Notes: generated by a model not told the origin, from the sequence alone. A stretch of DNA of 42,780 bases from Synergistaceae bacterium (GCA_017540085.1 JAFYBQ010000036.1:1-42780), one strand, 5' to 3'. Shown: positions 9,319 through 36,924, counted from the first letter of the stretch. Translations and numbers: made by a program.

Positions 9319-9340
9319 ATTATTGTCTCCTTAGTGTATA

Positions 9341-9356: not shown

Positions 9357-9396
9357 ATAATATCTTTCTATCATGCTTATTCTTACGGCGGAAAGA

Positions 9397-9421: not shown

Positions 9422-9439
9422 CTCGGTCTTTCATACCGT

Positions 9440-9740: not shown

Positions 9741-9751
9741 TCAGGAGTCTC

Positions 9752-19272: not shown

Positions 19273-19581
19273 TTAGCTGGCTTGAGATGGCAAGGGCATA
19301 AGAAATGTACGGAGTTGTGTAAAAGGCGACTCCTTATTTTTATGAAGGAATGAAGACGAGCGGAAGTGAAAATACTCGGTGAGATTAAAAGCATCGTCCG
19401 AATTGAAAACAGATTTGCCCGCTACACGGCTCGCGCTGTTCTCAATTTTGCCGTCCTTCCACCAGCTAGGCCGTGAAGCGTAAAAGTCTCCCGAAATGTT
19501 ATACAGTATGTCGGCGATAATGAGCTGTGCTTTCGGCAGGCCGTAAGAGTGTATAATCATCACCATATTCAGGAAAATCAC
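19273..19581 (-). CDS. Hypothetical protein or gene remnant with one membrane segment
   Basis: A 102-codon frame on the opposite strand to all neighbours. It begins with a hydrophobic stretch (VIFLNMVMIIHSYGLPKAQL) and continues as a polar domain with DFYASRPSWWKDG and FNLTEYFHFRSS. The start is a GTG without a clear ribosome binding site, and the frame is open a few codons further up to a TAG. It may be the tail of a truncated membrane protein. No family is recognised, and it may not be expressed. Confidence 0.3.
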   Translation of the reverse strand: MIFLNMVMIIHSYGLPKAQLIIADILYNISGDFYASRPSWWKDGKIENSASRVAGKSVFNSDDAFNLTEYFHFRSSSFLHKNKESPFTQLRTFLMPLPSQAS

Positions 19582-19676
19582 GAGAATGAGGTATAGCTAG
19601 ACAGCCAAATAGTATGAACAGGTAAAATAAAGTATCCTGAAAAGCACGGTTGACGAAAGGCTAAAGGAGGGTTAAT
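19582..19676 (+). promoter_or_regulatory. Upstream region and possible promoter of the structured RNA and MATE-NRPS operon
   Basis: TTGACG at 19650 and TAATCT at 19673 are 17 bases apart, giving a start near 19685, close to the beginning of the folded element. CAGG at 19619 and CCTG at 19636 form a hairpin just upstream, and AGCACGGTTGACGAAAGG follows. The AGCACGGTTG string resembles part of domain I of group II introns, but this is weak. Confidence 0.35.
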
Positions 19677-19886
19677 CTGCTACGTAATGTTAGGTGCTGG
19701 ACAGGCATCACCAAACCTGAGAAATCAGGCTACCTCCGGCTAGGGGGGAAGTAAAAGCCTCTGGACTGCCGTACAAACTCAAGTAGGCTCGCCGAACGAG
19801 GGCAGGAAATGTCTCAGAAATGAGGAAAGAACGAGGAAAACTCGAAAGAGTGTACACAGCACTTTATTACACTTTTTACGTAGCAG
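19677..19886 (+). ncRNA. Structured RNA element, about 210 nt, closed by an 11-bp stem
   Basis: No gene-like frame is seen. CTGCTACGTAA at 19677 is a perfect complement of TTACGTAGCAG at 19876. Inside, GTGCTG (19694) pairs with CAGCAC (19857), GGTG (19693) with CACC (19709), and CTGCC (19765) with GGCAG (19801). Small hairpins are CCTGA-GAAA-TCAGG, CCTCC-GGCTA-GGGGG, CTCG-CCGAA-CGAG, CTCA-GAAA-TGAG and CGAG-GAAAA-CTCG. Two have GNRA loops, common in RNAs with tertiary folding. The element ends 10 bases before the MATE start codon. It could be a cis-acting leader (riboswitch-like) for the NRPS operon or a remnant of a ribozyme-type element. No known riboswitch signature was recognised. Confidence 0.6.
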
Positions 19887-19896
19887 AGAAAAAGCA

Positions 19897-21570
19897 ATGT
19901 TCTCCGACAAATCAGACGGGACTTTCTTCACGGGCTACGTGAAATCTGGCGCACTCGTAAACAGAAAGTTTCTTGAATTTCTTATTCCCACGTTCTTAAT
20001 GTCAATGTCAGCACAGCTAGGAGTCGTCATGGACGGCGTAATAGTCAGCTACCTTATCAGCGCAGTGGCTATGGCCAGTGTAGAAGCGTCAATGCCATTG
20101 ACTCAAACCGCCGCGGCCCTGTCTGTAATGATTTCGGTCGGGGCTGTCGGGCATATCACAACAGCATTAGGACTCGGCGAAAAGGAAAAGGCTAACCGCA
20201 TATTCAGCACAGTGTTCTCTTCGTCGTTAGGAATCGGCATATTGCTGACGGCCTTTCTTTTTACGTTCACTGATGAGCTGTCAGAATTCATATCTCCTGC
20301 TAAATCTATGACAGATAACTGTGAAGATTATATTGAAGTTTTATTGTTCCGTTTTCCGTTCAGCGTTTCATTAATGGTTATGTGTGATATTGTCCGCTCC
20401 GATGGCATGGCTAAACTTGCAAGCTACTCAGTTATGATTCAGCAGTGTTCAAATATCATCATGGATTTCATATTCATAAAATTTTTCGGACTCGGTCTTG
20501 GAGGTGCCGCGCTCGCTACTGTACTTAGTGATGTTGCCGGAATCGTTTTCCTTCTCCGGGTATACAGCCGCTCAAAGGAACGTACACTCAGATTCATTAA
20601 TCCCCTGTCAGAAGGAATCATGAGATTCATATCGCGAACGTTCGAGATATGCCGCACAGGTCTTCCCGCTACATTCGGCATGATATGCATTGCTGTGAAA
20701 GTATGGTGCATATACAAGATTTTAGGGTCAACAGGCGGAGTCGGGGCGACTGAGATTTACGCGGCCTGTATGCTTTATCTCTCTCTGCTCTCGATGTTCG
20801 TTTTAGGTACGAATGACTCCGCGTATCCTATAGTGGGAGTGCTTTACGGAGAGAAAGATTACCGCGGTATTCGTATGTTCATGAGGTATGTATTCAGGTT
20901 CACGATGATGATTGCCGGTTTCTTTTTGCTTCTGTCGTTCCTGTTCCCGCGTGAGTTTCTGACTCTGTTTGGGCTTTCTGATGAGCTGGCCTTATCCGGC
21001 GCGGCGGCGGTTCGGCTTTTCTCCGTGAGTCTTGCTGGCGTGGCGATGACATTCATTATGATTTACTACTACACGGCAGTGAATCAGAACACAGCGGGCA
21101 ATATATTATCGCTGACGGAGGGATTTTTTGCGGTGATTCCGGCGGCGTGGGTGTTCTCGCGATTATTCGGGCAGATTGGCGTGTGGGCCGCGCTTGTTTT
21201 TGCGGAAATTGCCGGGTTCGCTGCGATATGGATTTACGTCAAGTACAAATGCTCTCATTCTGACGGAAAATTATCGGACTTCTATCTCATCGAGAAAAAC
21301 GGAAGCGAGCTTCTTTATGATGTCTCACTCAAAGCTACGGAGTCTGACGCGTCGAAATTGTCGCAGGAGTCAATTAGTGTTCTTGAGTCTCGCGGAATGG
21401 ATCACAGCACGGCCATGAAGGTCGGAATCGCTCTTGAGGAAATCACCGCGAACATGGCACTCATTAACGCAAAGCCGGTTGATTTTGACGTGAGAATTTT
21501 GGACAGCGGCAGGGATATTCTTCTTGCATTACGCGACAACGGAATAGAATTTAACCCGATAGAATATTAG
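19897..21570 (+). CDS. MATE-family efflux protein fused to a RsbW-like ATPase domain
   Basis: Cation-coupled multidrug exporter, the probable exporter of the peptide made by the next genes. Residues about 20-450 carry twelve hydrophobic segments with the MATE pattern of two similar halves (KFLEFLIPTFLMSMSAQLG; FEICRTGLPATFGMI). The C-terminal part after about residue 460 is a HATPase_c_2 domain, as in anti-sigma kinases: N box GIALEEITANM and G1 box LRDNGIEFNP. A TAG stops the frame at 21568 within this domain, yet 46 further codons fit its missing end. The ribosome binding site is weak (AGAG, about ten bases before the ATG). The gene begins right after the structured RNA and leads the NRPS operon. 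Confidence 0.88.
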   Translation: MFSDKSDGTFFTGYVKSGALVNRKFLEFLIPTFLMSMSAQLGVVMDGVIVSYLISAVAMASVEASMPLTQTAAALSVMISVGAVGHITTALGLGEKEKANRIFSTVFSSSLGIGILLTAFLFTFTDELSEFISPAKSMTDNCEDYIEVLLFRFPFSVSLMVMCDIVRSDGMAKLASYSVMIQQCSNIIMDFIFIKFFGLGLGGAALATVLSDVAGIVFLLRVYSRSKERTLRFINPLSEGIMRFISRTFEICRTGLPATFGMICIAVKVWCIYKILGSTGGVGATEIYAACMLYLSLLSMFVLGTNDSAYPIVGVLYGEKDYRGIRMFMRYVFRFTMMIAGFFLLLSFLFPREFLTLFGLSDELALSGAAAVRLFSVSLAGVAMTFIMIYYYTAVNQNTAGNILSLTEGFFAVIPAAWVFSRLFGQIGVWAALVFAEIAGFAAIWIYVKYKCSHSDGKLSDFYLIEKNGSELLYDVSLKATESDASKLSQESISVLESRGMDHSTAMKVGIALEEITANMALINAKPVDFDVRILDSGRDILLALRDNGIEFNPIEY

Positions 21571-21708
21571 CCGTCAGCAGAAGAGAAATCCGATTACCGC
21601 AGTGATAGAATTATGGTTCTCCGTGCTTTGTCAGGCGACATCAAATATGACCGAGTTTTGTCGCTGAATCAGACACTCATCACGATAAATATTTCAATGA
21701 AAGGTTAA
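21571..21708 (+). other. In-frame continuation of the MATE-ATPase gene after an amber stop
   Basis: Directly after TAG the same frame continues for 45 codons plus TAA. It reads SDRIMVLRALSGDIKYDRVL and then LNQTLITINI, which are the usual last strands and helix of RsbW-like ATPase domains. The TAA lies six bases before the NRPS start codon, the spacing expected inside an operon. So the segment was, or still is, part of the protein: either a recent nonsense mutation or stop-codon read-through. TAG ends other genes here (for example at 7147 and 12003), so general recoding is unlikely. Confidence 0.7.
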
Positions 21709-21714
21709 GCAGTA

Positions 21715-24700
21715 ATGGAAACAAAAATTAGGAAAGTCCCATTATCGCAGACTCAGTTAGGGATGTATTTCGAGTCCGTGAGGATGGGCGGATGTGCGTA
21801 CAATAGGCACTACCTTTACACGCTCGACAAGAGTCTTGACATGGAACGATTAGCGCGGGCAATCGAAAAAACCGTGCAGGCTCATCCCTATATGGAAGTC
21901 CGAATCTCCCAAGACGATAACAGCGGAGCAATCACTCAGTCAATCCCCGAATCTGAATCCCAATATCAGCAAACCGTAATGAAGATGTCAGAATCACAAT
22001 GGCAGGAGCGTCTGAAGACTCTCACTTCCGAACCTCTGACGTTAAACGGCGGGCGTTTGTTCCGTTTTGATCTCGCTGAGACCGAATGCGGGAAATACAT
22101 GCTGAGGACGACTCATCACGCAGCCTTTGACGGTATATCGTACAATGTCATAATGAACGATATTGCGGCGGCGTATAACGGTGAGAATCTGACTCAGGAA
22201 ACGTATAACGCTCTCGATGTTGCGGAGGAAGAGTCAAAACTCAGAGAAGGCGAAGAATACCAGCGCGCAAAAGAATGGTACGTGAAAAATTTTTCCGGGC
22301 TTGATGTCGTAAGTTCACCTCTTGCGGGTAACAGCGGGAATAATTCGGGCGAATGTTTTGTTTACACGTTCGATTTGTCCGAAGCTGACATGAAGAATTT
22401 TTGCCGTGAAAAGCACATCAGCACCTCAGCTTTGACTTCAGCAGCATTCGCCATTCTCACAGGAATTTACACGAACCAGCAGGAGTCATTGTTCTCGACA
22501 ATATATCATGGCCGCAGCAAGAACGCCGCGCATATCATCGGAATGTTCGTTAAGACTCTCCCGGTCTATGCGAAATGGGACAACGACACACGCACCGGGG
22601 ACTTTCTCGCGGGACTGTCGGAACAGATTCAGGGCGCAAGGGACAATGATATATTCTCGTTTGCTGAAGTGAATACCATATGCCCGCTGAATGAAGCTCC
22701 CTTGTTCGCGTGGCACGGGTCTGTGAGGACTCATGTTGAAGTCTGCGGAATGCCGGCAAGCGAGGATCTGTTAGACAAAACTACTGATGACACCGCGCTG
22801 TCTGTAGAGTTGATGTCTGTAGCTTCGGGAATGTCGTTGAGAGTCGAATACGATTCGGGGAAATATACACGTGAATTTATAGAGACGCTCGCAGAAACTT
22901 ACGGCAATATTCTCCGCCAGCTTATGACAAAAGAATTTGTGCGCGAGATTTACCCGTGCCCTGAAGGAACAAAGGCCGGGAATTTCAACGATACAGATTA
23001 CCCCGTAGAGCTTTGCGCCGTTCATGTACTTTTCGAGGAACAAGCGAGGAAGACTCCCGACACTGTAGCATTTGTTGCGGACGGTGAACGACTCACTTAC
23101 AGAGAGCTTAACGGAAGGGCGAATCGGCTCGCGCATTCCCTCATTGAGCGGGGCATTCAGCCGGAGGCAATTGTCGGATTGTTACTGCCGAGAACGATTG
23201 CCGTCCCGGTCTGCGAATATGGCGTATGGAAAGCGGGCGGAGCGTTTCTGCCTATGTCGGCGGAATATCCTGATGAACGAATTGATGTCTGCCTGCGTGA
23301 TGCCGGGTGCAAATTCTGTATCACAACTGAGGCGGTAAAGAATCAGCGCAAAAATCTTTTCACGTCCGACAAGCCTTATACCGTCCTGACCGTCGAGGAG
23401 CTTTGCGGGAATGACAACGCGGAGAATCCCGGCTTGACGGTGAGTCCCTCATCGCTTGCCTACGTGATATACACATCAGGCTCAACAGGCCGTCCCAAAG
23501 GCGTAATGCTTGAGCATGGGAACTTGTGCAATTTCGTCAACGCAAACGAAAAGAACATGGAGACCCGCGAATTTGTCGGGGGCGGAAAAACAGCTCTTGC
23601 TCTTGCGGCTGTGTCGTTCGACGTGTCAATGATGGAGATTCATATCTCGCTGACTCACGGCATGACATGCGTTATGGCGACTGAGGAAGAAATACATAAT
23701 CCGCTGCTTTTGGCCAAACTGATAAAGAATGAAGCTGTTGATATTGTATGTTTCACGCCTTCATATCTCGCTAATCTCTTGCAGTTCCCGGAGGCTGAAG
23801 AGGCTTTGCACAGGGTGAAAATGTACGATATGGGCGCAGAGGCTTTCCCGCCATCGCTTTACGGCAAAGTGCGCTCTGCGAGTCCTGACGCTGTAATAGT
23901 CAACGGCTACGGCCCTACAGAGGCAACAATAAGCTGTGTCGCCCGCATACTTTCAGGCGGTGAGAAAATCACCATCGGCAGACCTTCAGCGAACGTGAAA
24001 GCGTGGGTTATGGACAAATTCGGCCATGAGCTTCCCGCCGGGGCTGTCGGTGAATTAGTGATTGGCGGACTCGGTGTAGGACGGGGGTATGTGAATCTCC
24101 CTGATAAGACTTCAGCGGTATTCTTCACGCACAGGGGAGTCCGGGCTTACCGCACTGGCGATGTAGTGAGGCTTCTGCGTGATTCTGACGGCTTTACGGC
24201 TGACTATACTGACTATATCGGACGCGGAGACAGGCAGGTGAAAATACGCGGGCTGAGGATTGAGCTTGACGAAGTGGAGTCGGTGATACGTGAATTTCCA
24301 GGCGTGAGTGATGTTTCTGTCGTTGCGTTTGACGGGGACTCAGGCAAATTCATGGCCGCTTATGTCGTGTCATCCGGGAAAATTGACATTCCCGCGCTCA
24401 ATGACTTTATACGCGACAGGAAGCCGCCGTATATGATTCCTTCAGCAACGATTCAGATTGACGCAATCCCCCTCACGCCGTCTAGGAAAGTAGACCGCAA
24501 AGCCCTGCCGAAGCCGGACATTTCAGCCCTTACATCAGGCGCGGAAATCATACAGCCAAGAACAGACTCAGAGAAGAGAGTCTGCGCTGTAATTTCAGGG
24601 ATCACGGGCGGAAATAATTTCGGTGTGAATATGACGCTTGAGGAAATCGGCATAAACTCGCTGGCTATGATGAGGCTTGCAGTAACACTCAGCAGGGAAT

Positions 24701-27700
24701 TTTCGCATCCCATGAATTTCGCGGATCTTCAGCAGAACAACACGCCGGAGAAATTAGCGGCATTTCTTGAGGGCGGGACAAACGATGAGGATTTCCCCGT
24801 TCTTGATGATTCCCCGCTGACAAAGATACAGGAAGGAATATTTTTCGAGACGCAATCACATCCCGGGACAACAATCTACAACATTGCCACACTGCTTGAG
24901 CTTGCCGGGACTCCTGATGTTTCGCGAATAAGGGACGCTGTAATCTCTGCGGTGAAGGCTCATCCGTATTTGCTGACTCGATTTTTCCTGAATGACAACG
25001 GGGAAATACGGCAGAAACGCCCGGAAGATTTCGCGTTTGACGTTGAGGAGTCTCGCTTCAGAAATCTTGACGAGCTAAGGAAAAATCTTTTGCGGCCCTA
25101 TGACTTGCTGAATGACAGACTCATACGCGCCAATATTGCCCGGACTGATGACGGGAAAATTTACGTTTACTTTGACATGAATCACGCTGTCTTTGACGGA
25201 ATGTCGCAGCAAATTTTCATGCGTGATATTGAGCGGGCATATAACGGTGAGACATTAGAGCCGGAGAAATTCAGCGGATGGGAGGCGGCTATTCTTGAGG
25301 AGCGTTTGAGGAGCAGTCCTCAGTATCAGAAAGCGAAAGACTATTACACCGGGCTGTTCAGGGATTGCGAGCCTGACTGTCTGCCCTTGCCCGACATGCA
25401 GGAGGACGCAGAAGGAAGCCTCTCGATGATTATTCCCGGCCATGCTGACGCGGAGTCGATCAGAAAATTCTGCGATGATAACGGCATAAGCGAGAATGAT
25501 TTTTACACGGCGGCTTTCGGGTATGTCATCGCAGGTTTCAGCGGGCGCGAGGACTCAATCTTCACGACAAACAACAGCGGACGGAGCGACTCCAGATTCA
25601 TGGACAGCGTTTCAATGTTCGTGAGGACTTACCCGGTAATCTGCAAAACCGCAAAAGGCACTGTGCTTGATTATATCCGTGAGACAAAACGACAGCTAAC
25701 CGACAGCCTTTCTTACGGGGCGTACTCATTCGCAGAAATAAGCCATGACTTAGGTATTCCGGCTGATATTCTCTTTGCGTTTCAGGGTGCTGTGAGCGGA
25801 AAAATAGAGTCATTCTGCGGCTGTCCCTGCGTTGAAGTGGATGTATCACTTGACGAGGCAAAAGCGGGTATTGAGATGTCAGTATTCCCGGAGAACGGCG
25901 GACTCTCATATCATTTCACATGCCGTAAAAATCTCTATACTGATGACTTCATTCGGAATTTCGCGGGCATTTATGATAATGTTCTCACGGAGTTTACGCG
26001 AAAAGTGAATCTCAATGACGCAGAATTTCTTGACGCTGAAACAGAGTCCCTTCTCGACAAAGCCAATGACACAGCAACAGACTACGACAAATCGGACATT
26101 GTAACCCAGTTCAGGGGGACAGCAGAGAAATTCCCGGATAATATCGCAGTAGTGTACAGGGAGAAGCGTTACACCTACAGAGAGACGGACGAAATCACCG
26201 AAAGAATCGCGGCATACCTGAAGGGGCGCGGAATAGGTGCGGAAGATGTCGTGTCGGTTCTGATTCCCCGCTGTGAGTATATGGTGATTGCCTCGCTTGG
26301 AGTCCTCAAGACTTGTGCCGCCTATCAGCCGTTAGATCCATCGTACCCTCCTGAACGGCTCGAATTTATGATTACGGACGCTTCCGCAAAATTGTTGATT
26401 GCTGACAGGAGTCTCATCAAAGACTGTGTGCCGAATTATCACGGGGATATACTCTTCACTGACGAAATACCCGCATTGCCACCCGCGCAGAAACTCACGG
26501 AGACTCCGAGTCCGTCAAGCCTCTTCATTATGCTTTACACTTCCGGCTCAACAGGAGTCCCGAAAGGCGTAATGCTCGAACATGGAAACCTCGCCTGCTT
26601 CACAGCGTGGTACAGTAAGACGACTCATCTAACGGAAAAATCAAGAGTCGCGGCTTATGCGAGTTACGGATTTGACGCTTGCATGATGGACATATATCCC
26701 GCTCTCACATCGGGCGCGGCTGTTCATATACTTGACGAGGAAATAAGGCTTGATTTCGCGGCTATTCAGAAATATTTTGATGACGCTGGAATCACTCACT
26801 GCTTCATGACAACACAAGTCGGGCGGCAGTTCGCGGAATATTACACCGGGCAATCGCTGAAATATTTATCTGTCGGCGGTGAGAGGCTTGCTCCAATTTT
26901 CCCGGAGAATAAGAGCTTTGCTTTGCTCAATGGCTACGGGCCTACAGAATGCACAATCTTTACGACAATTTTCCCCGTGAAGAAACTTTACAGACGGATT
27001 CCAATCGGCGCGGCTCTCGACAATGTGAAGCTGTATGTTGTCGACAAGAACGGGCGCAGGCTTCCTCCGTATATGCCCGGCGAGCTTTGGGTTTCAGGTC
27101 ATCAGGTCGGGCGCGGCTATTTCAACAGGCCGGAGAAAAACGCAGAGAGTTTCACCGCAAATCCTTTCACGAATGAGGAAGGCTGCACGAGAATTTACAG
27201 GACGGGCGATATTGTCCGCAATGTTTATGACGGCGGGAAAATGGTCATTGATTTTGTCGGCAGGAATGACGCTCAGGTGAAAATTCGCGGTTTCCGTATT
27301 GAGCTGACAGAGGTTGAAGCGGTCATCAGAGATTTTCCGGGCGTGAAGGATGTTACTGTTCAGGCGTTCGACTCAGACAGCGGGGAAAAATATCTTGCGG
27401 CTTATGTCGTGAGTGAGGGGAAAATTGATGTTAATGCGCTGAATGAGTTTATCGGCCGGAACAAACCGCCCTATATGATTCCCGCCGTAACAATGCAGAT
27501 TGACGCAATCCCGCTCAAGCAGAATCAGAAAGTCAACCGCAAAGCCCTTCCCAAGCCCGAAATCACAGCCACGCGCAAAGAATCCGAGTCAGTCTCAGCA
27601 CCGCTAAATCTCTTGGAGAAAGACATAAAGGCCATAATCGCTGAGATAATCGGCACGGACTCTTTCAGCATAACAGACGCTCTCGGCAATTTCGGACTCA

Positions 27701-30700
27701 CGTCAATATCAAGCATACGGCTTGCGACTCAGATCTACAAGAAATACGGCGTTCAGTTGCAGGTGAGAAAGCTCGTCTCAGAAGGAAGCATACAGAGCAT
27801 AGAGAATGAAATTCTGCGTAAAGTTTTTGCTGAGACTCACGAGGAAAAATCAGAGCCGGAAAAATCACATGAGCCGTCAAAAAATTCATGCCCCCTCACG
27901 TTTGAACAGCAGGGTGTTTACGCGGAGTGCATGATTGACCCGTCATCGACAGTCTACAACACTCCTTTTTCCGTGAAGATTCCCGATGGCATAACAGCAG
28001 GACAGCTCAAAGAGGCGTTGCGGGAAGTCATCGAGGCGCACCCGTATATACTTTGCAGGTTCACGGCAAATGACAGAAACGAGATAATACAGGAGGCAAT
28101 TCCCGATTTCACGCTCGACATTCCCGAAAAAGAAATGACTCCTGAGGATTACGAGTCCTACTGCAAAGAAGGCTTTGTGCGTCCGTTCAATCTCGCTGAA
28201 GGGCCGCTTGTGCGTTTCGAGATCGTGAAGTCTGACGGGCTATATTTGCTGATGGATATGCACCATCTTGTTACTGACGGTGCGTCTGTTGATATTTTCC
28301 TTCAGCAGTTGTGCGCGAAACTTGACGGCCATGACATAGAGCATGAAGAATACAGCTACTACGATTACGCCGCCGATGAGAGAATGACGGACGGAGCAGA
28401 CGAATTTTTTGCCGGAAGAATGGCACTCTCAGACGAAGCGACTCAGATTATCCCGGATGTTTATGCGGAAAATCTCACGCACTCGGAAGACTCCGTGAGC
28501 GTCAAGACAGACATCAAAGCCGTGAAAGAATTTGCCCTCAAGCACGGCGCAACACCCGCTGAAATTTACCTTGCAGCCGGATATATTACGTTCTCGCGTT
28601 TCGTGTGTGATGATACTGTCTCAATAATGACAATCTCAAACGGTCGCGGAAACATGAAGATTGCCGGCACTCTCGGAATGTTCGTTAATTCACTGCCTCT
28701 CGTTGAAACTGTTGACAATTCCGAAAATGTTGCGGACTTTATCAAGCGTTCAGCAAAAAATTTCAGCGATACACTTCTTCATGAAAATTACCCGTTTGCG
28801 CGCGCTGCCTCAAAGTTCGATTTCCATCCGAGTATCTCATACGCATACCAGATAGGAGTCCTCAGCGAGTACAGGACAAAATACGGAGCATTAACCGCAG
28901 AAGAGCTTACATCGGACAAGGCAAAAATCCCCGTCGCGGTCTTCATCACAGGAACAGAGGACGAAGCCGAAATCAAGATAAGCTACGATACAGCCATGTA
29001 CAGCCGTGAAATCATGCAGGGCCTGACAGAGTGCTACGAAAACGCCGTGCAGGGACTCCTGACTCATGACAAAATTTCTGACATCAGCATAACGGACTCG
29101 CACCAGTGGGAAATTCTCGACTCGTACAATCCTGAATGGGATCTGAATTATGACATGAACGACACGCCCGTGTCAGCCTTCAGGAGGAACGCAAAGAACA
29201 ATCCCGACAAAGTTGCGGCGGTATTCAGGGATAAGCAGTACACATACAGGGAGCTTGACAAGCTGACAGACAGACTCGCGGCGAAAATCTACAGCAGAAT
29301 GAAAGCCATCACAGGCAGGGAAAATTTATCAGAAGAAGTAATCTCAATCATCATCCCCCGAAATGAAAACGTATTCATTCTCCCTCTTGCTGTCGTGAAA
29401 GCCGGGTGCGCTTATGAGCCGTTAGATCCTTCATACCCGCAGGAGAGGCTCAATTTCATGGTGAAAGATTCCGGCGCAAGACTCCTAATCGCTGATGACT
29501 CTTTGCGCTCACTCGTGAATGAATACGCGGGCGATGTGCTGACTGTCAGCGAGTTATACAGCATGAATGACTCGAACGACATACCGCCGTGTCCGTCCCC
29601 TGATGATTTATTCGTCATGCTCTACACATCTGGGTCAACCGGGACTCCGAAAGGCTGTCAGATCGAACACCGCAATGTTGTCGCGCTCGCTCACGGAATC
29701 GAATTGGCCGGATTCTACCGTGAAGACGACAGAATCGCCGACTATGCGTCATTCGGTTTTGACGTGAACATGGCCGATGTCTTCTGCACGCTCATTAACG
29801 GCGGGACGGTTTATATCATTCCTGAGGATATACGCATGAATCTTGACTCACTCGCAGAATATTTCGATGACGCGGGAATTACGGCGTTACTTCTCACGAC
29901 TCAGGTCGGCGTTCAGTTCATGCAGAATTACCCGCACTGCAAGACGCTGCGACTCCTCTTAATCGCCGGGGAAAAACTCCCTGCTGTTGACCCTTCCGGC
30001 CTGAGCTACACAATCGCTAACGGCTACGGCCCTACGGAGAACTGTTACGGCGTTAGTATCTTCCCGATTCGCAAATGGGAGAAGAATATCCCAATCGGCA
30101 AGCCATTCCCGACAATTCACGGCTACATTCTCGACAAGACAGGACACAGACTCCCGGCAGGCGCGGCGGGTGAATACTGCCTCTCAGGGCCGCAGGTCAG
30201 CAGAGGTTATCTCAACCGCCCGGACAAAACAGCAGAGGCTTACGAGCAATGCCCCTATAACAATTTCCGCATGTATCACACCGGGGATATTGTGCGTTAT
30301 CGTCAGGACGGAAATGTTGAGTTTGTCGGGCGCAAGGACGGACAAGTGAAGATTCGCGGCTTCAGGATTGAGACGAAAGAAATCGAGGCGGTGATTCGGA
30401 ATTTCGGCGGCGTGAAGGACGCTACTGTTCAGGCTTACGATTACGAATCAGGCGGTAAGTATCTTGCGGCGTTCGTTGTGAGTGATGAGGCAGTCGACAC
30501 TGAGAAATTGCGCGACTACATCAAGAGCCAGAAGCCCGCGTACATGGTGCCTGCGGTGATAATGCAGATCGACAAAGTTCCGCTGACGGTGAATCAGAAA
30601 GTCGACAGGAAAGCGTTACCCAAGCCGGAATTACAGAGGCGTGAATATGTTGCTCCTGCCGGAAAAACTGAGGAAGATTTCTGCGGGATATTCGGCGAAA

Positions 30701-32130
30701 TTCTAGGGCTTGAGAGAGTCGGCGCGGAAGATGATTTCTTTGAGCTTGGCGGAAGCTCCGTTATCGCAATGAAGGTTGTTATCGCCGCGGGCAAAAAGGG
30801 ATATTCCATCGTCTACAATGACGTATTCACGTACACGACTCCGAGACTCCTCGCTGAGTTTGTTACGGGGTCAGAGAGTCAGACGCAAGAAATTTCAGCG
30901 GACATAGCACCGTCAGCAGGGAAAATTACGGAGATAGACTCGGAAGGCTACGACTATTCCGCAATAAATGCACTTCTCGCGAAAAACACGATGGAGTCAT
31001 TCAGGAATGGCGAGCGTCAGAGATTGGGCGATGTACTTTTAGCGGGTGCGACGGGGTATCTTGGGATTCACGTGCTTGAAGAGTTGCTCACGTCAACAGA
31101 GTCAAAAGTTTTCTGCCTCATCAGACCAAAAGAAGGCAGCAGCGGTGAAAAACGTCTGAGAAATCTTCTTGAGTATTACTTTGGCCATGACCACGCGGAA
31201 TATTTTGCCTCTCGTATAACAGTCATTGAAGGCGACGCGACAGACCCGGACTCGCTGAGAGATTTTACGCCCGACTCAAACATGACGGTGATAAACTGCG
31301 CGGCCTCCGTAAAGCATTTCGCAAAAGGCAACGAGATCGAACGCACTAACGTTGACTCAGTGAAGAATCTTGTCGCATGGTGTGAGGAAAATGATTCGCG
31401 TCTCGTCCACATCTCAACAGGCAGCATTATCGGCGGACGGAAAAACGGACTTCCCCCTGAAGGCTACCGCTTTGATGAGCATGTACTCTTTGCGGGTCAG
31501 ACAGTGAAGCATAATCAGTACATTCACTCGAAATTCATGGCCGAGAGATTCATTTACGAGGAAATTTTGACGCATGGACTGAACGCAAAAGTATTCAGAG
31601 TCGGAGACCTTGCACCGCGTTTGTCGGACGGAAAATTTCAGGTCAACTTCAGAACGAACAACATCATGAACACGCTTAGAGCCTATAAGATTCTCGGAGT
31701 GGTGAATTTCGGCGCGCTCACAAATGAGATAGAGTTCTCGCCGATTGACTCCCTCGCAAAAGCTGTTATCGCACTCGCAGGAACTCCGAAAGAATGTATA
31801 TGCTTCATGCCGATTAACCCGCACCGGGCGTTAATGCAGGATGTTTTCACGGAGATTCGCGGACTCGGCTATGAGATTCGCGCGGTTGAAGATGACGAAA
31901 TGAAACAGGCACTTGACGCGGCATTGTCAGACAGCAGGAACAGCGCGGTTTCTCCGTTAGTCGCATACGCAGACAACAGCGGAGTAAAAGAACTCGGACT
32001 TGATGACATTGATACGGGCTTCACATCGCAGGTGCTGTACCGTTTGGGCTTCTCATGGCCGGAAACAGGCGCGGAATACATCAGGCAGTTTATCAGGAAA
32101 CTTGACGGGCTTTCATTTTTTGACGAGTAA
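21715..32130 (+). CDS. Trimodular nonribosomal peptide synthetase with terminal reductase, (C-A-T)x3-Re
   Basis: Giant assembly-line enzyme of 3,471 residues. Module 1: C with HHAAFDG at 134; A with YTSGSTGRPKG near 586; T with Ser 982 in IGINSLAMM. Module 2: C with NHAVFDG at 1156 (first His replaced by Asn, second and catalytic His kept); A with YTSGSTGVPKG near 1608; T with Ser 1997. Module 3: C with HHLVTDG at 2183; A with YTSGSTGTPKG near 2637; T with LGGSS at 3011-3015. The end is a thioester reductase with NADPH motif AGATGYLG near 3112 and catalytic Thr 3235, Tyr 3269 and Lys 3273 (YIHSK). No epimerase or methyltransferase domain is seen. The terminal reductase implies release of an aldehyde or alcohol. 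An N-terminal C domain suggests that an acyl or aminoacyl starter is supplied in trans. The ribosome binding site is weak (AAAGG), so coupling to the MATE gene is likely. Confidence 0.95.
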   Translation: METKIRKVPLSQTQLGMYFESVRMGGCAYNRHYLYTLDKSLDMERLARAIEKTVQAHPYMEVRISQDDNSGAITQSIPESESQYQQTVMKMSESQWQERLKTLTSEPLTLNGGRLFRFDLAETECGKYMLRTTHHAAFDGISYNVIMNDIAAAYNGENLTQETYNALDVAEEESKLREGEEYQRAKEWYVKNFSGLDVVSSPLAGNSGNNSGECFVYTFDLSEADMKNFCREKHISTSALTSAAFAILTGIYTNQQESLFSTIYHGRSKNAAHIIGMFVKTLPVYAKWDNDTRTGDFLAGLSEQIQGARDNDIFSFAEVNTICPLNEAPLFAWHGSVRTHVEVCGMPASEDLLDKTTDDTALSVELMSVASGMSLRVEYDSGKYTREFIETLAETYGNILRQLMTKEFVREIYPCPEGTKAGNFNDTDYPVELCAVHVLFEEQARKTPDTVAFVADGERLTYRELNGRANRLAHSLIERGIQPEAIVGLLLPRTIAVPVCEYGVWKAGGAFLPMSAEYPDERIDVCLRDAGCKFCITTEAVKNQRKNLFTSDKPYTVLTVEELCGNDNAENPGLTVSPSSLAYVIYTSGSTGRPKGVMLEHGNLCNFVNANEKNMETREFVGGGKTALALAAVSFDVSMMEIHISLTHGMTCVMATEEEIHNPLLLAKLIKNEAVDIVCFTPSYLANLLQFPEAEEALHRVKMYDMGAEAFPPSLYGKVRSASPDAVIVNGYGPTEATISCVARILSGGEKITIGRPSANVKAWVMDKFGHELPAGAVGELVIGGLGVGRGYVNLPDKTSAVFFTHRGVRAYRTGDVVRLLRDSDGFTADYTDYIGRGDRQVKIRGLRIELDEVESVIREFPGVSDVSVVAFDGDSGKFMAAYVVSSGKIDIPALNDFIRDRKPPYMIPSATIQIDAIPLTPSRKVDRKALPKPDISALTSGAEIIQPRTDSEKRVCAVISGITGGNNFGVNMTLEEIGINSLAMMRLAVTLSREFSHPMNFADLQQNNTPEKLAAFLEGGTNDEDFPVLDDSPLTKIQEGIFFETQSHPGTTIYNIATLLELAGTPDVSRIRDAVISAVKAHPYLLTRFFLNDNGEIRQKRPEDFAFDVEESRFRNLDELRKNLLRPYDLLNDRLIRANIARTDDGKIYVYFDMNHAVFDGMSQQIFMRDIERAYNGETLEPEKFSGWEAAILEERLRSSPQYQKAKDYYTGLFRDCEPDCLPLPDMQEDAEGSLSMIIPGHADAESIRKFCDDNGISENDFYTAAFGYVIAGFSGREDSIFTTNNSGRSDSRFMDSVSMFVRTYPVICKTAKGTVLDYIRETKRQLTDSLSYGAYSFAEISHDLGIPADILFAFQGAVSGKIESFCGCPCVEVDVSLDEAKAGIEMSVFPENGGLSYHFTCRKNLYTDDFIRNFAGIYDNVLTEFTRKVNLNDAEFLDAETESLLDKANDTATDYDKSDIVTQFRGTAEKFPDNIAVVYREKRYTYRETDEITERIAAYLKGRGIGAEDVVSVLIPRCEYMVIASLGVLKTCAAYQPLDPSYPPERLEFMITDASAKLLIADRSLIKDCVPNYHGDILFTDEIPALPPAQKLTETPSPSSLFIMLYTSGSTGVPKGVMLEHGNLACFTAWYSKTTHLTEKSRVAAYASYGFDACMMDIYPALTSGAAVHILDEEIRLDFAAIQKYFDDAGITHCFMTTQVGRQFAEYYTGQSLKYLSVGGERLAPIFPENKSFALLNGYGPTECTIFTTIFPVKKLYRRIPIGAALDNVKLYVVDKNGRRLPPYMPGELWVSGHQVGRGYFNRPEKNAESFTANPFTNEEGCTRIYRTGDIVRNVYDGGKMVIDFVGRNDAQVKIRGFRIELTEVEAVIRDFPGVKDVTVQAFDSDSGEKYLAAYVVSEGKIDVNALNEFIGRNKPPYMIPAVTMQIDAIPLKQNQKVNRKALPKPEITATRKESESVSAPLNLLEKDIKAIIAEIIGTDSFSITDALGNFGLTSISSIRLATQIYKKYGVQLQVRKLVSEGSIQSIENEILRKVFAETHEEKSEPEKSHEPSKNSCPLTFEQQGVYAECMIDPSSTVYNTPFSVKIPDGITAGQLKEALREVIEAHPYILCRFTANDRNEIIQEAIPDFTLDIPEKEMTPEDYESYCKEGFVRPFNLAEGPLVRFEIVKSDGLYLLMDMHHLVTDGASVDIFLQQLCAKLDGHDIEHEEYSYYDYAADERMTDGADEFFAGRMALSDEATQIIPDVYAENLTHSEDSVSVKTDIKAVKEFALKHGATPAEIYLAAGYITFSRFVCDDTVSIMTISNGRGNMKIAGTLGMFVNSLPLVETVDNSENVADFIKRSAKNFSDTLLHENYPFARAASKFDFHPSISYAYQIGVLSEYRTKYGALTAEELTSDKAKIPVAVFITGTEDEAEIKISYDTAMYSREIMQGLTECYENAVQGLLTHDKISDISITDSHQWEILDSYNPEWDLNYDMNDTPVSAFRRNAKNNPDKVAAVFRDKQYTYRELDKLTDRLAAKIYSRMKAITGRENLSEEVISIIIPRNENVFILPLAVVKAGCAYEPLDPSYPQERLNFMVKDSGARLLIADDSLRSLVNEYAGDVLTVSELYSMNDSNDIPPCPSPDDLFVMLYTSGSTGTPKGCQIEHRNVVALAHGIELAGFYREDDRIADYASFGFDVNMADVFCTLINGGTVYIIPEDIRMNLDSLAEYFDDAGITALLLTTQVGVQFMQNYPHCKTLRLLLIAGEKLPAVDPSGLSYTIANGYGPTENCYGVSIFPIRKWEKNIPIGKPFPTIHGYILDKTGHRLPAGAAGEYCLSGPQVSRGYLNRPDKTAEAYEQCPYNNFRMYHTGDIVRYRQDGNVEFVGRKDGQVKIRGFRIETKEIEAVIRNFGGVKDATVQAYDYESGGKYLAAFVVSDEAVDTEKLRDYIKSQKPAYMVPAVIMQIDKVPLTVNQKVDRKALPKPELQRREYVAPAGKTEEDFCGIFGEILGLERVGAEDDFFELGGSSVIAMKVVIAAGKKGYSIVYNDVFTYTTPRLLAEFVTGSESQTQEISADIAPSAGKITEIDSEGYDYSAINALLAKNTMESFRNGERQRLGDVLLAGATGYLGIHVLEELLTSTESKVFCLIRPKEGSSGEKRLRNLLEYYFGHDHAEYFASRITVIEGDATDPDSLRDFTPDSNMTVINCAASVKHFAKGNEIERTNVDSVKNLVAWCEENDSRLVHISTGSIIGGRKNGLPPEGYRFDEHVLFAGQTVKHNQYIHSKFMAERFIYEEILTHGLNAKVFRVGDLAPRLSDGKFQVNFRTNNIMNTLRAYKILGVVNFGALTNEIEFSPIDSLAKAVIALAGTPKECICFMPINPHRALMQDVFTEIRGLGYEIRAVEDDEMKQALDAALSDSRNSAVSPLVAYADNSGVKELGLDDIDTGFTSQVLYRLGFSWPETGAEYIRQFIRKLDGLSFFDE

Positions 32131-32139
32131 AATATCATC

Positions 32140-35100
32140 ATGACACTAATTCACGAAATCGTATCACAATACGCCGTGAACAATCCCAAAAAGAAGGCTG
32201 CTGAGGACTCATTCGGCAGTCTCTCTTACAGGGAGCTTGACGGCAAAAGCAATTCAGGCGCAAAAATACTTTATGGACTCGGAGTCAGCGCGGGGGATTC
32301 TATCGGCGTTTATGTTCCGTATGTGAAAGACGTAATCACCGGGGCTTTGTCCGTGTGGAAGGCTGGCGGGGTCTATATCCCTATGGATGACGCATATCCC
32401 GCTGAGAGACTCGAATACATCCTCAGAGACTCAAACGCAAAAGCTATCCTCACATGCCGGACTCTTTGGGAGAAAAAGCCGCTCAGTTTTCCGGCGGAAA
32501 ATGTGATATTCCTCGATGACATCACAGACATCACATCATCATTCACCCCTTGCGCGGACATCACCGAAAAATCCCCGGCCATGATTCTCTACACTTCCGG
32601 CACAACTGGCAGGCCTAAAGGAGTCCTTCACAGGCACGAATTTTTGACTCACATTGTCGATTGGATGAACGTAACGGAAGATTTCTGCATGACAAAAGAC
32701 TCACGAGTCGGACTCATTTCGCGGTTTACGTTTGTTGCGACTGTAACATTCATGTTCGGCGCGTTGCTGAAGGGAGGAACGTTATATTTTGCCCCCGAAA
32801 ACGCAAGGAATGATATTGAGCAGCTCTATAAATTTCTCGCGGACAAAAAGATTTCTCACATATTCATTGCTTCAGGGCTTGCGGCAATTCTCGCTGAGGA
32901 TTACGACATTTCCGGCGTGAATGTTTTTGCGGCGGGTGAAAAGCTCCCTAACTTCCGGGCGCATTCAGACTCCGTATATCTCCGAAATATTTACGGCTCA
33001 ACAGAAATCGGCGTTGTTACGTCAGCGGAAATTCACGGCCAAGAGAATCCCATCACAATCGGCAAGCCCGGCCCCGGCACAAAAGCAATGCTCATTGATG
33101 AAAATCTCAGTCCGTCAAAACCTGATGAAGCTGGCGAACTCCTCATAGCGAATGAATACATGTCGAGGCAATATCTCAATCTCCCGGAGCAGACAGCGGA
33201 GAAATGGATTCAGATTGACGGCCTCACCTGGTACAGGACAGGCGACAGGGCTACAATGACTCATGAAGGGGATATATGCATTCTCGGACGAACCGACAAC
33301 ATGATAAAGCTGCGGGGATTCAGAATCGAAACGGGCGAGGTTGAGTCGCAAGTGTCAAAAGCTGTAACAGGAATCAGGCGCGATGACGTGAAAAACATTG
33401 TCGTGTGTCTTCGAACCGTAAGCAGGAATGATTATCTTGTCTGCTACTACGAGTCGGGAAATGACCTTGCCCCTGACGAAATCAGCGCGGTGAAAAATGA
33501 GTCCGCAAAATATCTCGCTGACTACATGATTCCAGATATATTCATGAGAGTCGCCCAAATGCCCCGAAACCTTAACGGCAAAATCATACGCAGAGACCTT
33601 CCGCAGCCAAAATCGCACACGCACGAAATCACAGCTCTTGACAGTGAGACTCTTGCGCGAGTCGTGTGGGCTGTTTCTGACGTTCTCGGAATCTCATCGG
33701 CTGAACCTGAAGACACATTCACGGAGCTTGGCGGGTCATCAATCACGGCCATGAAGCTGGCGGCGTTGTTGCGTCCGCAGGGCATAAAGATTACGACAGC
33801 GCAAATACTGAAGCTGAATGTATTGCGGAAAATTGCTGACGCGGCTGAAGTCGATTACGCTAAATTGTGGTCAGAGGAAGAATACAGCGCGGTTATTGCC
33901 GATTTTGCCTCACGCGGTGAACACATACAGAAAGTGCTTCCCATTACGGCGGAGCAAGATGATATGCTGTTCGACTATATACTTTCCCCGGACAGAAACA
34001 GCTTCAGATCTGTTTACATGCTTCAGGTTGACAGCGTTATAACGGAGGAAAATTTGCGGCTCGCTCTTGATACTGTCTCACAAGAAAATGAAGAGTTGCG
34101 CTCATCTATCGTATTTCACCGCACGCGAGTTATACAGCAGGTGATAACAGACAGGAAGATTCCCGCAAAATTCGTGAACATAAATAATCTTGATGACAAG
34201 AATCTCGAAGTCGCATGGAATATATTTCAAAGTCCCATTGATTTGCAGAGAGACACATTAATGCGTGTCGTTTGCGGAGAGTTTTTCGGGAAAAGTTTCC
34301 TGTACATAATGACGAGTCATATCAGCTTCACGAAAGCGCAGGCGCGGAAATATTTTGCCCGTATAATGTCGGTGCTTGAGGAAAAATATCCGAGCGACAA
34401 AGCGATTCATGACTGGCGGGAAATTTTTGACGGGACTCTAACGGAAGATTTGACGGAAAAACCGAAACCCCGCGGCGAGTCAAAGCTGAGACAACTTGAC
34501 CGCCCAAGAAGCAATATCCCCCCGGAAATCTGCGTATACTCCGAGAACAGCGGCCCTAAAATGACGTTCATTCACACAGGCAACACAGGAAGCGAGGCAT
34601 ATTACAGGCTGGCCGACAGAATCAGGGATAAGATTTCTTTCTCGGTGATTGAGCCGTTCAACCTGTGGCACATTGAGCAGGCGACATACGGTATACCGAA
34701 CATCGCAAAAAGGTATGTAGAGATTCTCAAGCGTCATCAGCCCGAAGGCCCGTATATTCTCGGCGGCTGGTGCTACGGCGGAATGATAGCCCACGAAATG
34801 GCATGTCAGCTTCAGGACGCAGGCGAGGAAGTGAAATATCTGTTCATGCTGGACTCACACGCTACGACAGATCCGGCATTAAGGCAAATGGCTAAAAGCA
34901 TGTATGAAGCGTCGGGGCGGGAATATTTCGAGACAAGCCCGCTGTTTTCTGACCTGCGGGAATCAGGAATGCTTGAAGCTATGATAATCAACTCGGAGCA
35001 TGTATATCACGACATGGCCACTCATATGCCGTCATTCTTCAGCGGCTCTGTAACATACTTCAAGCCCGATGTTGTTCCGGCAGAATCTTCCGGGAACGCT

Positions 35101-35271
35101 CGTAAATATTGGGAGAAAATGATGGAGTTCCCCGCCGGTAATTACAGGCCATTCTGCAACAAAGATTTATTCCGAATCATTCACACACCGCACGAGCATG
35201 ATTTGATGATGGATGATCCCTCGCTTGAGATTATTGTCCCGGAAATTTACAGGGCATTGGGCATAAAGTGA
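32140..35271 (+). CDS. NRPS-like protein A-T-partial C-thioesterase
   Basis: 1,043 residues. The A domain (about 1-505) has YTSGTTGRPKG near 151, IYGSTE, the YRTGD hinge, and the A10 Lys in NGKIIRRDLP. The region that normally carries the alpha-amino-binding Asp reads RFTFVATVTF (195-204), so an alpha-amino acid is an unlikely substrate. The T domain has LGGSS at 530-534. A shortened C-like N-lobe (about 610-770) has SHISFTK at 726 in place of HHxxxDG and no C-lobe. The thioesterase (about 800-1043) has GGWCYGG, with Cys 878 as nucleophile instead of Ser, Asp 905 (MLDSHA) and His 1020 (HEHDLM). It may load the starter unit for the large synthetase. The thioesterase may edit, hydrolyse or cyclise. 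The gene begins 9 bases after the NRPS stop. Confidence 0.92.
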   Translation: MTLIHEIVSQYAVNNPKKKAAEDSFGSLSYRELDGKSNSGAKILYGLGVSAGDSIGVYVPYVKDVITGALSVWKAGGVYIPMDDAYPAERLEYILRDSNAKAILTCRTLWEKKPLSFPAENVIFLDDITDITSSFTPCADITEKSPAMILYTSGTTGRPKGVLHRHEFLTHIVDWMNVTEDFCMTKDSRVGLISRFTFVATVTFMFGALLKGGTLYFAPENARNDIEQLYKFLADKKISHIFIASGLAAILAEDYDISGVNVFAAGEKLPNFRAHSDSVYLRNIYGSTEIGVVTSAEIHGQENPITIGKPGPGTKAMLIDENLSPSKPDEAGELLIANEYMSRQYLNLPEQTAEKWIQIDGLTWYRTGDRATMTHEGDICILGRTDNMIKLRGFRIETGEVESQVSKAVTGIRRDDVKNIVVCLRTVSRNDYLVCYYESGNDLAPDEISAVKNESAKYLADYMIPDIFMRVAQMPRNLNGKIIRRDLPQPKSHTHEITALDSETLARVVWAVSDVLGISSAEPEDTFTELGGSSITAMKLAALLRPQGIKITTAQILKLNVLRKIADAAEVDYAKLWSEEEYSAVIADFASRGEHIQKVLPITAEQDDMLFDYILSPDRNSFRSVYMLQVDSVITEENLRLALDTVSQENEELRSSIVFHRTRVIQQVITDRKIPAKFVNINNLDDKNLEVAWNIFQSPIDLQRDTLMRVVCGEFFGKSFLYIMTSHISFTKAQARKYFARIMSVLEEKYPSDKAIHDWREIFDGTLTEDLTEKPKPRGESKLRQLDRPRSNIPPEICVYSENSGPKMTFIHTGNTGSEAYYRLADRIRDKISFSVIEPFNLWHIEQATYGIPNIAKRYVEILKRHQPEGPYILGGWCYGGMIAHEMACQLQDAGEEVKYLFMLDSHATTDPALRQMAKSMYEASGREYFETSPLFSDLRESGMLEAMIINSEHVYHDMATHMPSFFSGSVTYFKPDVVPAESSGNARKYWEKMMEFPAGNYRPFCNKDLFRIIHTPHEHDLMMDDPSLEIIVPEIYRALGIK

Positions 35272-35849
35272 TAAGGCTGACTCTTCTCGACATTCGCGGA
35301 CTTAGGCCAAAAGCTGAAGAGTTACTGCGGGGACTGCCTGAAGAGTTGCGGAAAAAGGCATTGCGTTACAGAAAAGAAGATGACCAACTACGCAGCATAG
35401 GGTCATCTTTTTTGTTGCTGAAAGCCGCAAAGGGTCAAGAGATTCATTACAGCCTTGAAGGAAAGCCGTTTGTTGACGGAGAAAAATACTTCAGCATTTC
35501 ACACAGCGGGGATTATGTCGTTCTCGCTGAAGCTGATTCGCCTATTGGTGTTGACGTTGAGAGAGTCGCGGACATTGGGATTAATGATGACTTGAAGAAT
35601 GTCGCATTGACTGAGAGGGAAAAACTTTGGGTGAAAGATTCACTGCTGAGATTCTATGTTGTGTGGACGAGAAAAGAGAGCCTCATAAAATGCGAGGGAC
35701 ACGGCTTCATTTCAGAGCCTTGCGAAATTGACGCACTTCCTGAGAATGATTTTGATGACCTTGTGAAGTATGAGGGAAAATTTTACCGCATTGAAAGTTT
35801 TATGTTTGACGGGCATATAATATCACTTGCCATAGAGACTGTACAATGA
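35268..35849 (+). CDS. 4'-phosphopantetheinyl transferase, Sfp type
   Basis: Attaches the phosphopantetheine arm to the carrier domains of the two synthetases. Family motifs are FSISHSGDYVVLA, IGVDVERV with the Mg-binding Asp and Glu, and WTRKESLIKCEGHGF. Its 193 residues are slightly short for the Sfp class. The start GTG overlaps the stop of the previous gene (GTGA), so it is the last gene of the operon. The final codons (TVQ and the stop) lie inside an IS256-like terminal sequence starting at 35837. The natural C-terminus was therefore probably replaced by insertion of a mobile element, without loss of the catalytic part. Confidence 0.93.
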   Translation: MIRLTLLDIRGLRPKAEELLRGLPEELRKKALRYRKEDDQLRSIGSSFLLLKAAKGQEIHYSLEGKPFVDGEKYFSISHSGDYVVLAEADSPIGVDVERVADIGINDDLKNVALTEREKLWVKDSLLRFYVVWTRKESLIKCEGHGFISEPCEIDALPENDFDDLVKYEGKFYRIESFMFDGHIISLAIETVQ

Positions 35850-35885: not shown

Positions 35886-36026
35886 ATGAAAGAGGAAAGA
35901 CAGGAAAAACTCAAGATTAGCAACGACTTGCTCGATGCCATGCTCGTAGGGGTCAAAACTCAAGACGATTTGGGTCTGTCAAGTAAACTGTGTATGAGAT
36001 TTTTCTATGACACTTTCCGGCTTTGA
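35886..36026 (+). pseudogene. IS256-family transposase, N-terminal fragment
   Basis: With AGGAGG 8 bases upstream, an ATG begins MKEERQEKLKISNDLLDAML and then VGVKTQDDL, the typical start of IS256-type (mutator) transposases of about 400 residues. Homology stops after about 29 codons, where a second IS256-like end begins at 35974. The rest of the frame to TGA at 36024 is junction sequence. No catalytic DDE residues remain, so it is inactive. Confidence 0.75.
35974..35998 (+). repeat. Second IS256-like terminal sequence
   Basis: This 25-base stretch opens GTCTGTCAAGTAAACTGTGT and matches the copy at 35837 at 19 positions. Read on the minus strand it ends CAGTTTACTTGACAGAC, like the outer right end of IS256 elements. 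It cuts into the transposase frame on one side and adjoins the phage fragment on the other, suggesting nested insertion followed by deletion. Confidence 0.5.
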
Positions 36027-36402
36027 AGGGTACATAATCAATTTCCGCAAGTTTTTTCAGGACGGCTTTTCTCATGGTGCTTAGAGAATGCGAGACTGCA
36101 TTCTGCAAATACGGGTTAGAGCCTAGATTGTATGTCAGCCCGTCATCAGGTGAGACAGCGTAATAGCTAGTGGTCTGCTTCCTGATGTTGACAACAGAAA
36201 TGCCCGTGTATCTAGTGGAAAAGTCGGAGAAAGTACAGCCCGTGAATCTGTGAGCATCATCGATAACATCAGCGGGCTGACCGCCGTACTGTCTGAAGAG
36301 AATCCCGCCCGACCTCGAAGCTGTAACGAAACAGCAGCAGGTTTGAGCAATCCACGATAAAGCGTCCCTGTAAGTCTTGATGTCATTCTCCGCGTAAGCC
36401 AA
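36013..36402 (-). pseudogene. Phage tail structural protein fragment
   Basis: A minus-strand frame reads TYRDALSWIAQTCCCFVTAS, then FRQYGGQPADVIDDAHRFTG, TRYTGISVVNI and DGLTYNLGSNPYLQNAV, up to DYVPFKAG. I recognise this pattern from tail or minor structural proteins of prophages in gut Firmicutes-like hosts. Both ends are missing: the C-terminal side meets an IS-like end and the N-terminal side meets a glycosyltransferase fragment at about 36402. No other phage gene is near. The whole minus-strand frame runs to 35953 through junction sequence. Confidence 0.65.
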
Positions 36403-36924
36403 GCCCTTACGGGTTCAGAGATACGCGGCATTCTCGCAAAGCATAAAATAATACTCCCCCTCCGGCGAAAATATTACATTGAGACAGTCTACAGCCATTA
36501 CGCGCACACTCATGACAGAAGACACCTTGACACCGCCCGTGAAATTATTGCCTCTGACTGCCCCGAATACCTGCCTTCATTCGACAAAGTTATGTCGCGG
36601 AACTGGGCGCACATCTTCAACATGTTTATTATGCCCAAAGCACTGGCGGATGATTATTGCTCATGGCTATTCCCGCTGCTTAAAGGAGTTGAGGAGTGTA
36701 CAGACAAAAGCAGGTTCAACGATTTCCAGAAGCGATTTGTCGGAGTGGTCAGCGAAATGATGCTTGATGTATGGATTGTACGGCAGATTGAAACAGGGAG
36801 TATAACGCCCGGCGATATAACCGAAGTTCCGTATATTTACACCAGAAAAATAAACTGGCTGAGGAAAATAACCTCATTCCTCCTTGCAAAATTTTTCGGT
36901 GTTAAGTACTATCGCAATTTCTGA
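36403..36924 (+). pseudogene. DUF4422 capsular polysaccharide glycosyltransferase-like gene, 5' truncated
   Basis: The open frame starts abruptly as ALTGSEIRGILAKHKIILPL and continues RRKYYIETVYSHYAHTHD, CPEYLPSFDKVMSRNWAHIF and NMFIMPKALADDYCSWLF, matching the second half of DUF4422 proteins, which occur in capsule and exopolysaccharide loci. The N-terminal nucleotide-sugar-binding half is missing, replaced by the phage fragment at about 36402. An internal ATG at 36592 could give a 110-residue product but is not a natural start. It suggests that this strand once formed a polysaccharide cluster with the next two genes. Confidence 0.75.

Follow-up and report, generated by a model that had tools for sequence, protein, structure and literature searches.

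A reductase-type peptide synthetase cluster of putative mosaic origin in a Synergistaceae bacterium, with a companion protein apparently inherited together with the terminal module

Introduction

Peptide aldehydes act as inhibitors of proteases. The dipeptide-aldehyde non-ribosomal peptide synthetases (NRPSs) of gut Clostridia, for example that for ruminopeptin of Ruminococcus bromii, are predicted to form such peptide aldehydes (PMC12327764), and in Methanobrevibacter ruminantium the NRPSs of mru0066-0071 and mru0351 are located beside MATE and serine-phosphatase/anti-sigma genes (PMC2812497). The releasing domain of the methanogen NRPS is a reductase (Re) according to the supplement legend and a thioesterase (TE) according to the main text (PMC2812497). 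Furthermore, non-reducing NRPS-like enzymes are described which join aromatic keto acids (PMC12105029). In this study, an NRPS cluster was analysed in a window of 42,780 nucleotides from a Synergistaceae bacterium (GCA_017540085.1, JAFYBQ010000036.1:1-42780); this window corresponds to contig C36 of a genome that measures 2.17 Mb and is 99.8% complete. A first-pass annotation had listed a MATE exporter, a synthetase (NRPS1) with three modules of condensation (C), adenylation (A) and thiolation (T) domains and a terminal Re, an A-T-C*-TE protein (SP2) and an Sfp-type activator. All four were found, and all are encoded on the plus strand. Most domains were detected with E-values between 1e-9 and 1e-229 and are therefore not chance matches; the partial C domain of SP2 reached 1e-7. 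The condensation domains of NRPS1 and SP2 are the only ones in the whole genome.

Results and discussion

Co-inheritance of SP2 and the terminal module

According to the sequence comparisons, SP2 and the rear portion of NRPS1 have been inherited together, and this pair is found in three phyla. An SP2 orthologue and a T-Re orthologue (at least 85%) occurred in the same 5 of 101 Synergistales genomes, and the other reductase NRPSs of the host genus are not accompanied by SP2. In genome G010, the synthetase is encoded on a different contig than SP2 and the phosphopantetheinyl transferase, both loci lying away from the contig ends and apparently unlinked, and both were retained. The trees of the TE and T-Re domains were congruent (Mantel r 0.98, p < 0.001, 14 clusters). 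Domain phylogenies had been suggested in the first-pass annotation, and the one run for Re placed the SP2-linked domains in a single clade (100/99), which excludes the Re domains of G020 from the same genus and of G046 from the same family. In addition, the terminal A domains of the 12 SP2-linked synthetases that were read all exhibited the code DV[AS]Lx[AG]GxGK, and this code did not occur in reductase NRPSs without SP2-C*. Co-occurrence, congruent trees, the single Re clade and the common terminal A code together suggest that the terminal module and SP2 were transferred between phyla.

The back half (A2-T2-C3-A3-T3-Re, followed by SP2) was also present in metagenome-assembled genomes (MAGs) of Prevotella/Bacteroidaceae and Firmicutes, mostly from ruminant samples, with A3 at 65–77% and SP2 at 49–54% (in one case 38%). 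A scan of 84,980 species, which covers close relatives only, yielded SP2 relatives of 50–57% in MAGs of Prevotella (red deer, sheep abomasum, buffalo rumen), Eubacterium (goat rumen) and Oscillospiraceae (buffalo rumen). In profile searches of four groups centred on genomes with SP2 relatives, 2 of 299, 2 of 300, 2 of 299 and 6 of 399 genomes were positive, which makes the pair rare and its distribution patchy. Except in G010, SP2 with C* came after a reductase NRPS in every case in which the adjoining DNA was of sufficient length. Three of the matches in the group of 399 genomes (L107-L109) were A-T-TE cousins free of C*. Two of these adjoin a reductase NRPS whose terminal A domain is of another type, and MATE-HATPase and SpoIIE genes are located nearby. 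In L108, a beta-lactamase-fold serine hydrolase, a possible maturation or self-protection enzyme, is encoded between the A-T-TE protein and the MATE-HATPase (8936-10024).

The kin genomes belong to one large genus (43 genomes searched) within one family and order. SP2 was 81–90% identical in named loci from 'uncultured Fretibacterium' and 'Synergistaceae' MAGs, the 'Synergistaceae' one originating from goat reticulum. The order-level relatives and these named loci bear out the presumed Synergistota-like host, namely a member of the Synergistaceae. The expectation that such a host would make the system new was not supported, since the aldehyde-forming half and SP2 are shared with Prevotella/Bacteroidaceae and Firmicutes. 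A related terminal module with a dedicated companion in Synergistota, Bacteroidota and Firmicutes points to a small-molecule trait which ruminant-gut microbes have in common, even if it is rare. Reductase NRPSs and their aldehydes, dipeptide forms included, are already known from gut microbes; the cross-phylum pair of a constant A3-Re and SP2 was not found in the literature searched. Nor was a reductase-NRPS partner with A-T-C*-TE architecture described there, which is a weak negative, as most subscription papers were outside the coverage.

Domains of NRPS1 and the predicted product

NRPS1 (3471 aa; 21715..32130, plus strand) starts with C1 (21715..23004, motif HHAAFDG), A1 (23026..24564, code DVMCDGGISK) and T1 (24565..24804). 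The second module consists of C2 (24805..26109, NHAVFDG), A2 (26110..27639, DAMFSGGIFK) and T2 (27640..27864), and the third of C3 (27865..29169, HHLVTDG), A3 (29170..30669, DVALLAGYGK) and T3 (30670..30894), after which the terminal thioester reductase Re follows (30982..32127, GATGYLG and YIHSK). The condensation motif is retained as HHxxxDG in C1 and C3 and as NHxxxDG in C2, and Re still possesses its NADPH/nucleotide motif and YxxxK. This is the layout of reductase-terminated NRPSs, in which C/A/T modules are followed by an Re of the short-chain dehydrogenase/reductase type with GxxGxxG and YxxxK. Pairwise dN/dS values were 0.06–0.20 for every domain of NRPS1 and SP2 tested. C1, which may or may not be a starter-type (lipid-initiating) C domain, matched BacC, TycC and others; the list of matches in the protein structure database PDB had no row for RzmA.

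The ten-letter A codes were read with GrsA as register, the last letter (Lys517) being assumed and not aligned. The code given by the GrsA segment agrees with the table in PMC11355689. The A2 code shares six of its ten letters with the valine code DAFWIGGTFK.

Among solved structures, T3-Re is closest to the T-Re didomain 6vtj (312 bits), the AusA reductase being a further close relative of Re (107 bits). We take 6vtj to be the archaeal T-Re didomain of Methanobrevibacter ruminantium. The corresponding paper is cited in PMC12783407. Because Re is intact by motif and has these relatives, release of the three-residue chain as aldehyde or alcohol is the natural prediction; an aldehyde had also been inferred in the first-pass annotation. 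A reductase-released three-residue product of NRPS1 is considered quite likely, and this product is probably a tripeptide aldehyde or alcohol. The term tripeptide is adequate for the window, but not for the sister clusters, which comprise two or three A domains.

Features and possible role of SP2

SP2 (1043 aa; 32140..35271, plus strand) consists of an A domain with Val in place of Asp235 (32140..33609), a T domain with the motif GGSS and the phosphopantetheine-binding Ser534 (33652..33855), C* (33895..34434) and a TE with Cys878 (GGWCYGG), Asp905 and His1020 (34507..35268). In all SP2 relatives, position 235 is Val, Ile or Ser. A domains for keto acids typically carry an aliphatic residue instead of Asp235 (PMC10949194), and Val235 of SP2 is compatible with a keto acid, but equally with other acids. 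Since Asp235 is missing, SP2 probably activates a non-amino acid.

C* is a condensation N-lobe which covers only positions 2-122 of the 456-position C model and is directly followed by TE. HHxxxDG and the entire C-lobe are missing in all relatives, so that the label C* was chosen correctly. Its pairwise dN/dS of 0.15–0.16 is similar to that of the active domains; although dead, this half-C domain is thus subject to purifying selection and has been retained for a reason. A Cys nucleophile is also found in the solved NRPS thioesterases of AB3403, ObiF and SulM. AlphaFold models of C*-TE alone (pLDDT 69, pTM 0.47) and of full SP2 (65.6 and 0.36) were too weak for the domain arrangement. Usable parts are TE (residues 791-1043), which resembles the TE of NocB (Z 24.9, 2.5 Å over 220), and the N-lobe of the C domain (Foldseek, about 160 columns at 2.5–3.3 Å).

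The explanation favoured here as a whole, although with slightly less than even confidence, is a working reductase-type NRPS cluster of mosaic origin, in which SP2 serves as an in-trans acyl-capping enzyme. The T domains would be armed by the Sfp-type 4'-phosphopantetheinyl transferase (PPTase; 35268..35849, plus strand), which was identified by domain search. NRPS1 would link three amino acids, A2 probably providing a Val/Ile-like and A3 a conserved, probably bulky residue. Re would then use NAD(P)H to release the chain from T3 in the form of a tripeptide aldehyde, which may undergo further reduction to the alcohol, and the MATE protein would export the product; all of these roles are suggested by intact domains and by the known families. 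SP2 would activate a carboxylic acid without an alpha-amino group, perhaps an alpha-keto acid, and keep it on its own T domain until the Cys-thioesterase passes the acyl group as a cap to the finished or nearly finished NRPS product or chain; C* may act as a structural spacer or docking piece. This acyl transfer by the Cys-TE is put forward tentatively, and is preferred because SP2 goes with the terminal module and not with a starter C domain.

The first-pass annotation had assigned the loading of the starter to SP2. Its A-T part would then supply the first C domain of NRPS1 with an acyl group, leading to an N-acyl peptide aldehyde, while TE clears misloaded T domains. NRPS1 and most of the Prevotella forms indeed open with an intact C domain in need of a donor, and an A domain without Asp235 is what would be expected for an acyl starter. 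However, the synthetases of L105 and L106 begin with their own Asp235-containing amino-acid A domain and lack a starter C domain, and that of L051 begins with its own Asp235-less A domain; since all three keep SP2, it is unlikely that SP2 is a general starter loader. Moreover, SP2 follows the terminal A3-Re rather than the front end, and a TE right after T would compete with delivery.

It is still less likely that SP2 is an independent A-T-TE enzyme which joins two alpha-keto acids to a furanone- or quinone-type compound, so that the cluster yields two products. The A-T-TE layout, the missing Asp235 and the plain A-T-TE architecture of the C*-free relatives fit such an enzyme, and non-reducing examples that join aromatic keto acids exist (see Introduction). 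The conservation of C* and the fact that SP2 is strictly inherited with a single Re/A3 type, also where the two are unlinked, speak against it, and no aminotransferase was noticed adjoining the clusters.

Several points also weigh against in-trans capping by a functional cluster. The Cys-TE of SP2 could equally hydrolyse or cyclise, or SP2 may form a separate product. The A1 and A3 codes had no close match among the few known codes compared, and A2 agreed in the six letters only. In addition, export or regulation may be impaired by the stop codon that truncates the HATPase segment of the exporter gene and by the repeat before the start of this gene (see below). That SP2 stands for a new class of helper proteins, with A-T-(half-C)-TE architecture, in-trans acylation, paired inheritance with the terminal module, spread between ruminant-gut bacteria from at least three phyla and a freely exchangeable synthetase front, is a more doubtful extension of the capping function.

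Mosaic front end of the synthetase

The front part (MATE, C1, A1-T1 and C2) is, judged by the identity values, assembled from other sources. In comparison to Prevotella, C2 was only 30% identical to the equivalent first C domain, followed by A2 with 57–60%, C3 with 54–58%, A3 with 70–77% and Re with 58–60%, and in comparison to G010 the identity rose from about 30% to 80–97% at the C2-A2 linker. MATE (52%) and C1 (54%) resemble the cluster of G020, whose C1 is the nearest outside relative of C1. The G020 cluster comprises a SpoIIE phosphatase, a MATE-HATPase, C-A-T-C-A-T-Re and a STAS-A fusion. In the latter (L030, 4918-6879), which is located near the NRPS and the SpoIIE/MATE-HATPase genes, a STAS domain is fused to an AMP-binding ligase, an odd tie of partner-switch signalling to acyl activation.

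In the sister cluster of G031, A1-T1 is exactly absent (604 codons, in frame), which leaves C1 and C2 in tandem; the breakpoints lie within short similarity (DTDYP/DDSP before LTK). Either A1-T1 was lost in G031 or it was gained in the window. With a clean in-frame difference of an A-T unit and an exchange at the C-A linker in genes whose remaining parts share about 90% identity, the sister clusters may be regarded as natural NRPS re-engineering. In the sister synthetase of G010 (L027, 8793-16814), the N-terminal C-like domain and the next half C domain both lack HxxxDG. Although their NRPS clusters differ, L025 (G031) and L030 (G020) have the same sugar-kinase genes on the flanks of these clusters, a possible exchange site.

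The MATE exporter, the upstream repeat and the limits of the cluster

The MATE-family exporter (19897..21570, plus strand) continues as a fusion into the initial portion of an RsbW-like HATPase domain, where an in-frame TAG (21568-21570) ends it. In comparison to the MATE protein of G020, the homology continues beyond this TAG in the same frame, with the remaining HATPase part at 21571..21708; the C-terminal HATPase of a MATE-HATPase fusion has therefore been cut by a nonsense codon. A frameshift was rejected as the cause, because the homology goes on in the same frame, and so was a reassignment of TAG, which ends 5 of the 25 genes of the window as called, the MATE gene included. MATE proteins fused to RsbW-like HATPases are encoded beside SpoIIE phosphatases, often together with an NRPS, in L076, L075, L030, L051 and L108. 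Such fusions occur in Synergistota, Firmicutes and Bacteroidota, and in L079 and L080 (Synergistaceae) without an NRPS.

A non-autonomous dispersed repeat of about 300 bp (19590..19889, plus strand) has a sharp right end (...TTTTTACGTAGCAG) 7 bp before the start codon of MATE. About eight further occurrences exist in the genome, the full-length copies being 82–90% identical and the partial ones lying at contig ends. The repeat showed a weak, sub-threshold match (E 0.018) to RAGATH-18, the guide RNA of the IS607 TnpB (PMC11061315), and is possibly a TnpB-less element which retained its guide RNA; at the Rfam gathering score, only tRNA was found. A second repeat type at 19350-19550 is 90% identical to G000 C37:840-1039.

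The mosaic front and the damaged MATE gene might indicate that the window harbours a decaying cluster without a product. The in-frame TAG, the repeat immediately upstream, the lack of SpoIIE/STAS partners alongside and the reduction of MATE to a 72-nt remnant upstream of the G031 synthetase are in agreement with decay. On the other hand, the reading frames of NRPS1, SP2 and PPTase are uninterrupted from end to end and subject to purifying selection, which renders decay improbable, and a working cluster with SP2 as capping enzyme is preferred.

The limits of the locus had to be revised. Position 19677, at which it had been started, is not the start of a gene but lies inside the 300-bp repeat. 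Gaps of 10 bases or less apply to NRPS1 and SP2 (9 bp) and to SP2 and PPTase (4-bp overlap), but not to MATE and NRPS1, which are 144 bp apart as the genes stand and would be 6 bp apart if TAG were read through. A fixed, self-contained unit is not supported either, in view of the MATE remnant of G031 and the split locus of G010. The remnants downstream, at 35886-36924, comprise a short open stretch (MKEERQEKLKISNDLLDAM...) similar to the start of a transposase and, from a DUF4422 gene, the 3' end (E 2.5e-19).

Comparison with known systems

By description, the dipeptide-aldehyde NRPSs of Clostridia are, like the system in the window, short gut NRPSs with a predicted aldehyde product; the window differs by its three modules and SP2. 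The G020 cluster is much like mru0066-0071 of Methanobrevibacter. For the Methanobrevibacter clusters no A-T-C*-TE companion is described, and of their regulatory set the window retains only the MATE-HATPase part, in which the HATPase is no longer intact owing to the in-frame TAG. SpoIIE and STAS genes, or remnants of them, were absent from the window; such genes adjoin the NRPS in G020 and G007, and the SpoIIE genes of the host genome are located on another contig.

AusAB of Staphylococcus aureus shares the A-T/C-A-T/Re logic and the PPTase partner with the window, but is dimodular, begins with an A domain and has neither SP2 nor MATE. The best NCBIfam models remained below their cut-offs (NRPS1, NF047350, 1392.9 vs 2500 bits; PPTase, NF047349, 52.8 vs 225 bits).

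With AB3403 of Acinetobacter baumannii (4zxh), SP2 has the terminal TE, the GGWC nucleophile and the Asp after beta-6 in common; AB3403, however, is a C-A-T-TE module, and A domain and function differ. The non-reducing enzymes for polyporic acid and atromentin resemble SP2 in the A-T-TE layout and in the probable non-amino-acid substrate. They are A-T-TE enzymes without a condensation domain, whereas SP2 contains half of one, and SP2 is further distinguished from them by the position of C* as an insert, the Cys nucleophile and the pairing with a reductase NRPS.

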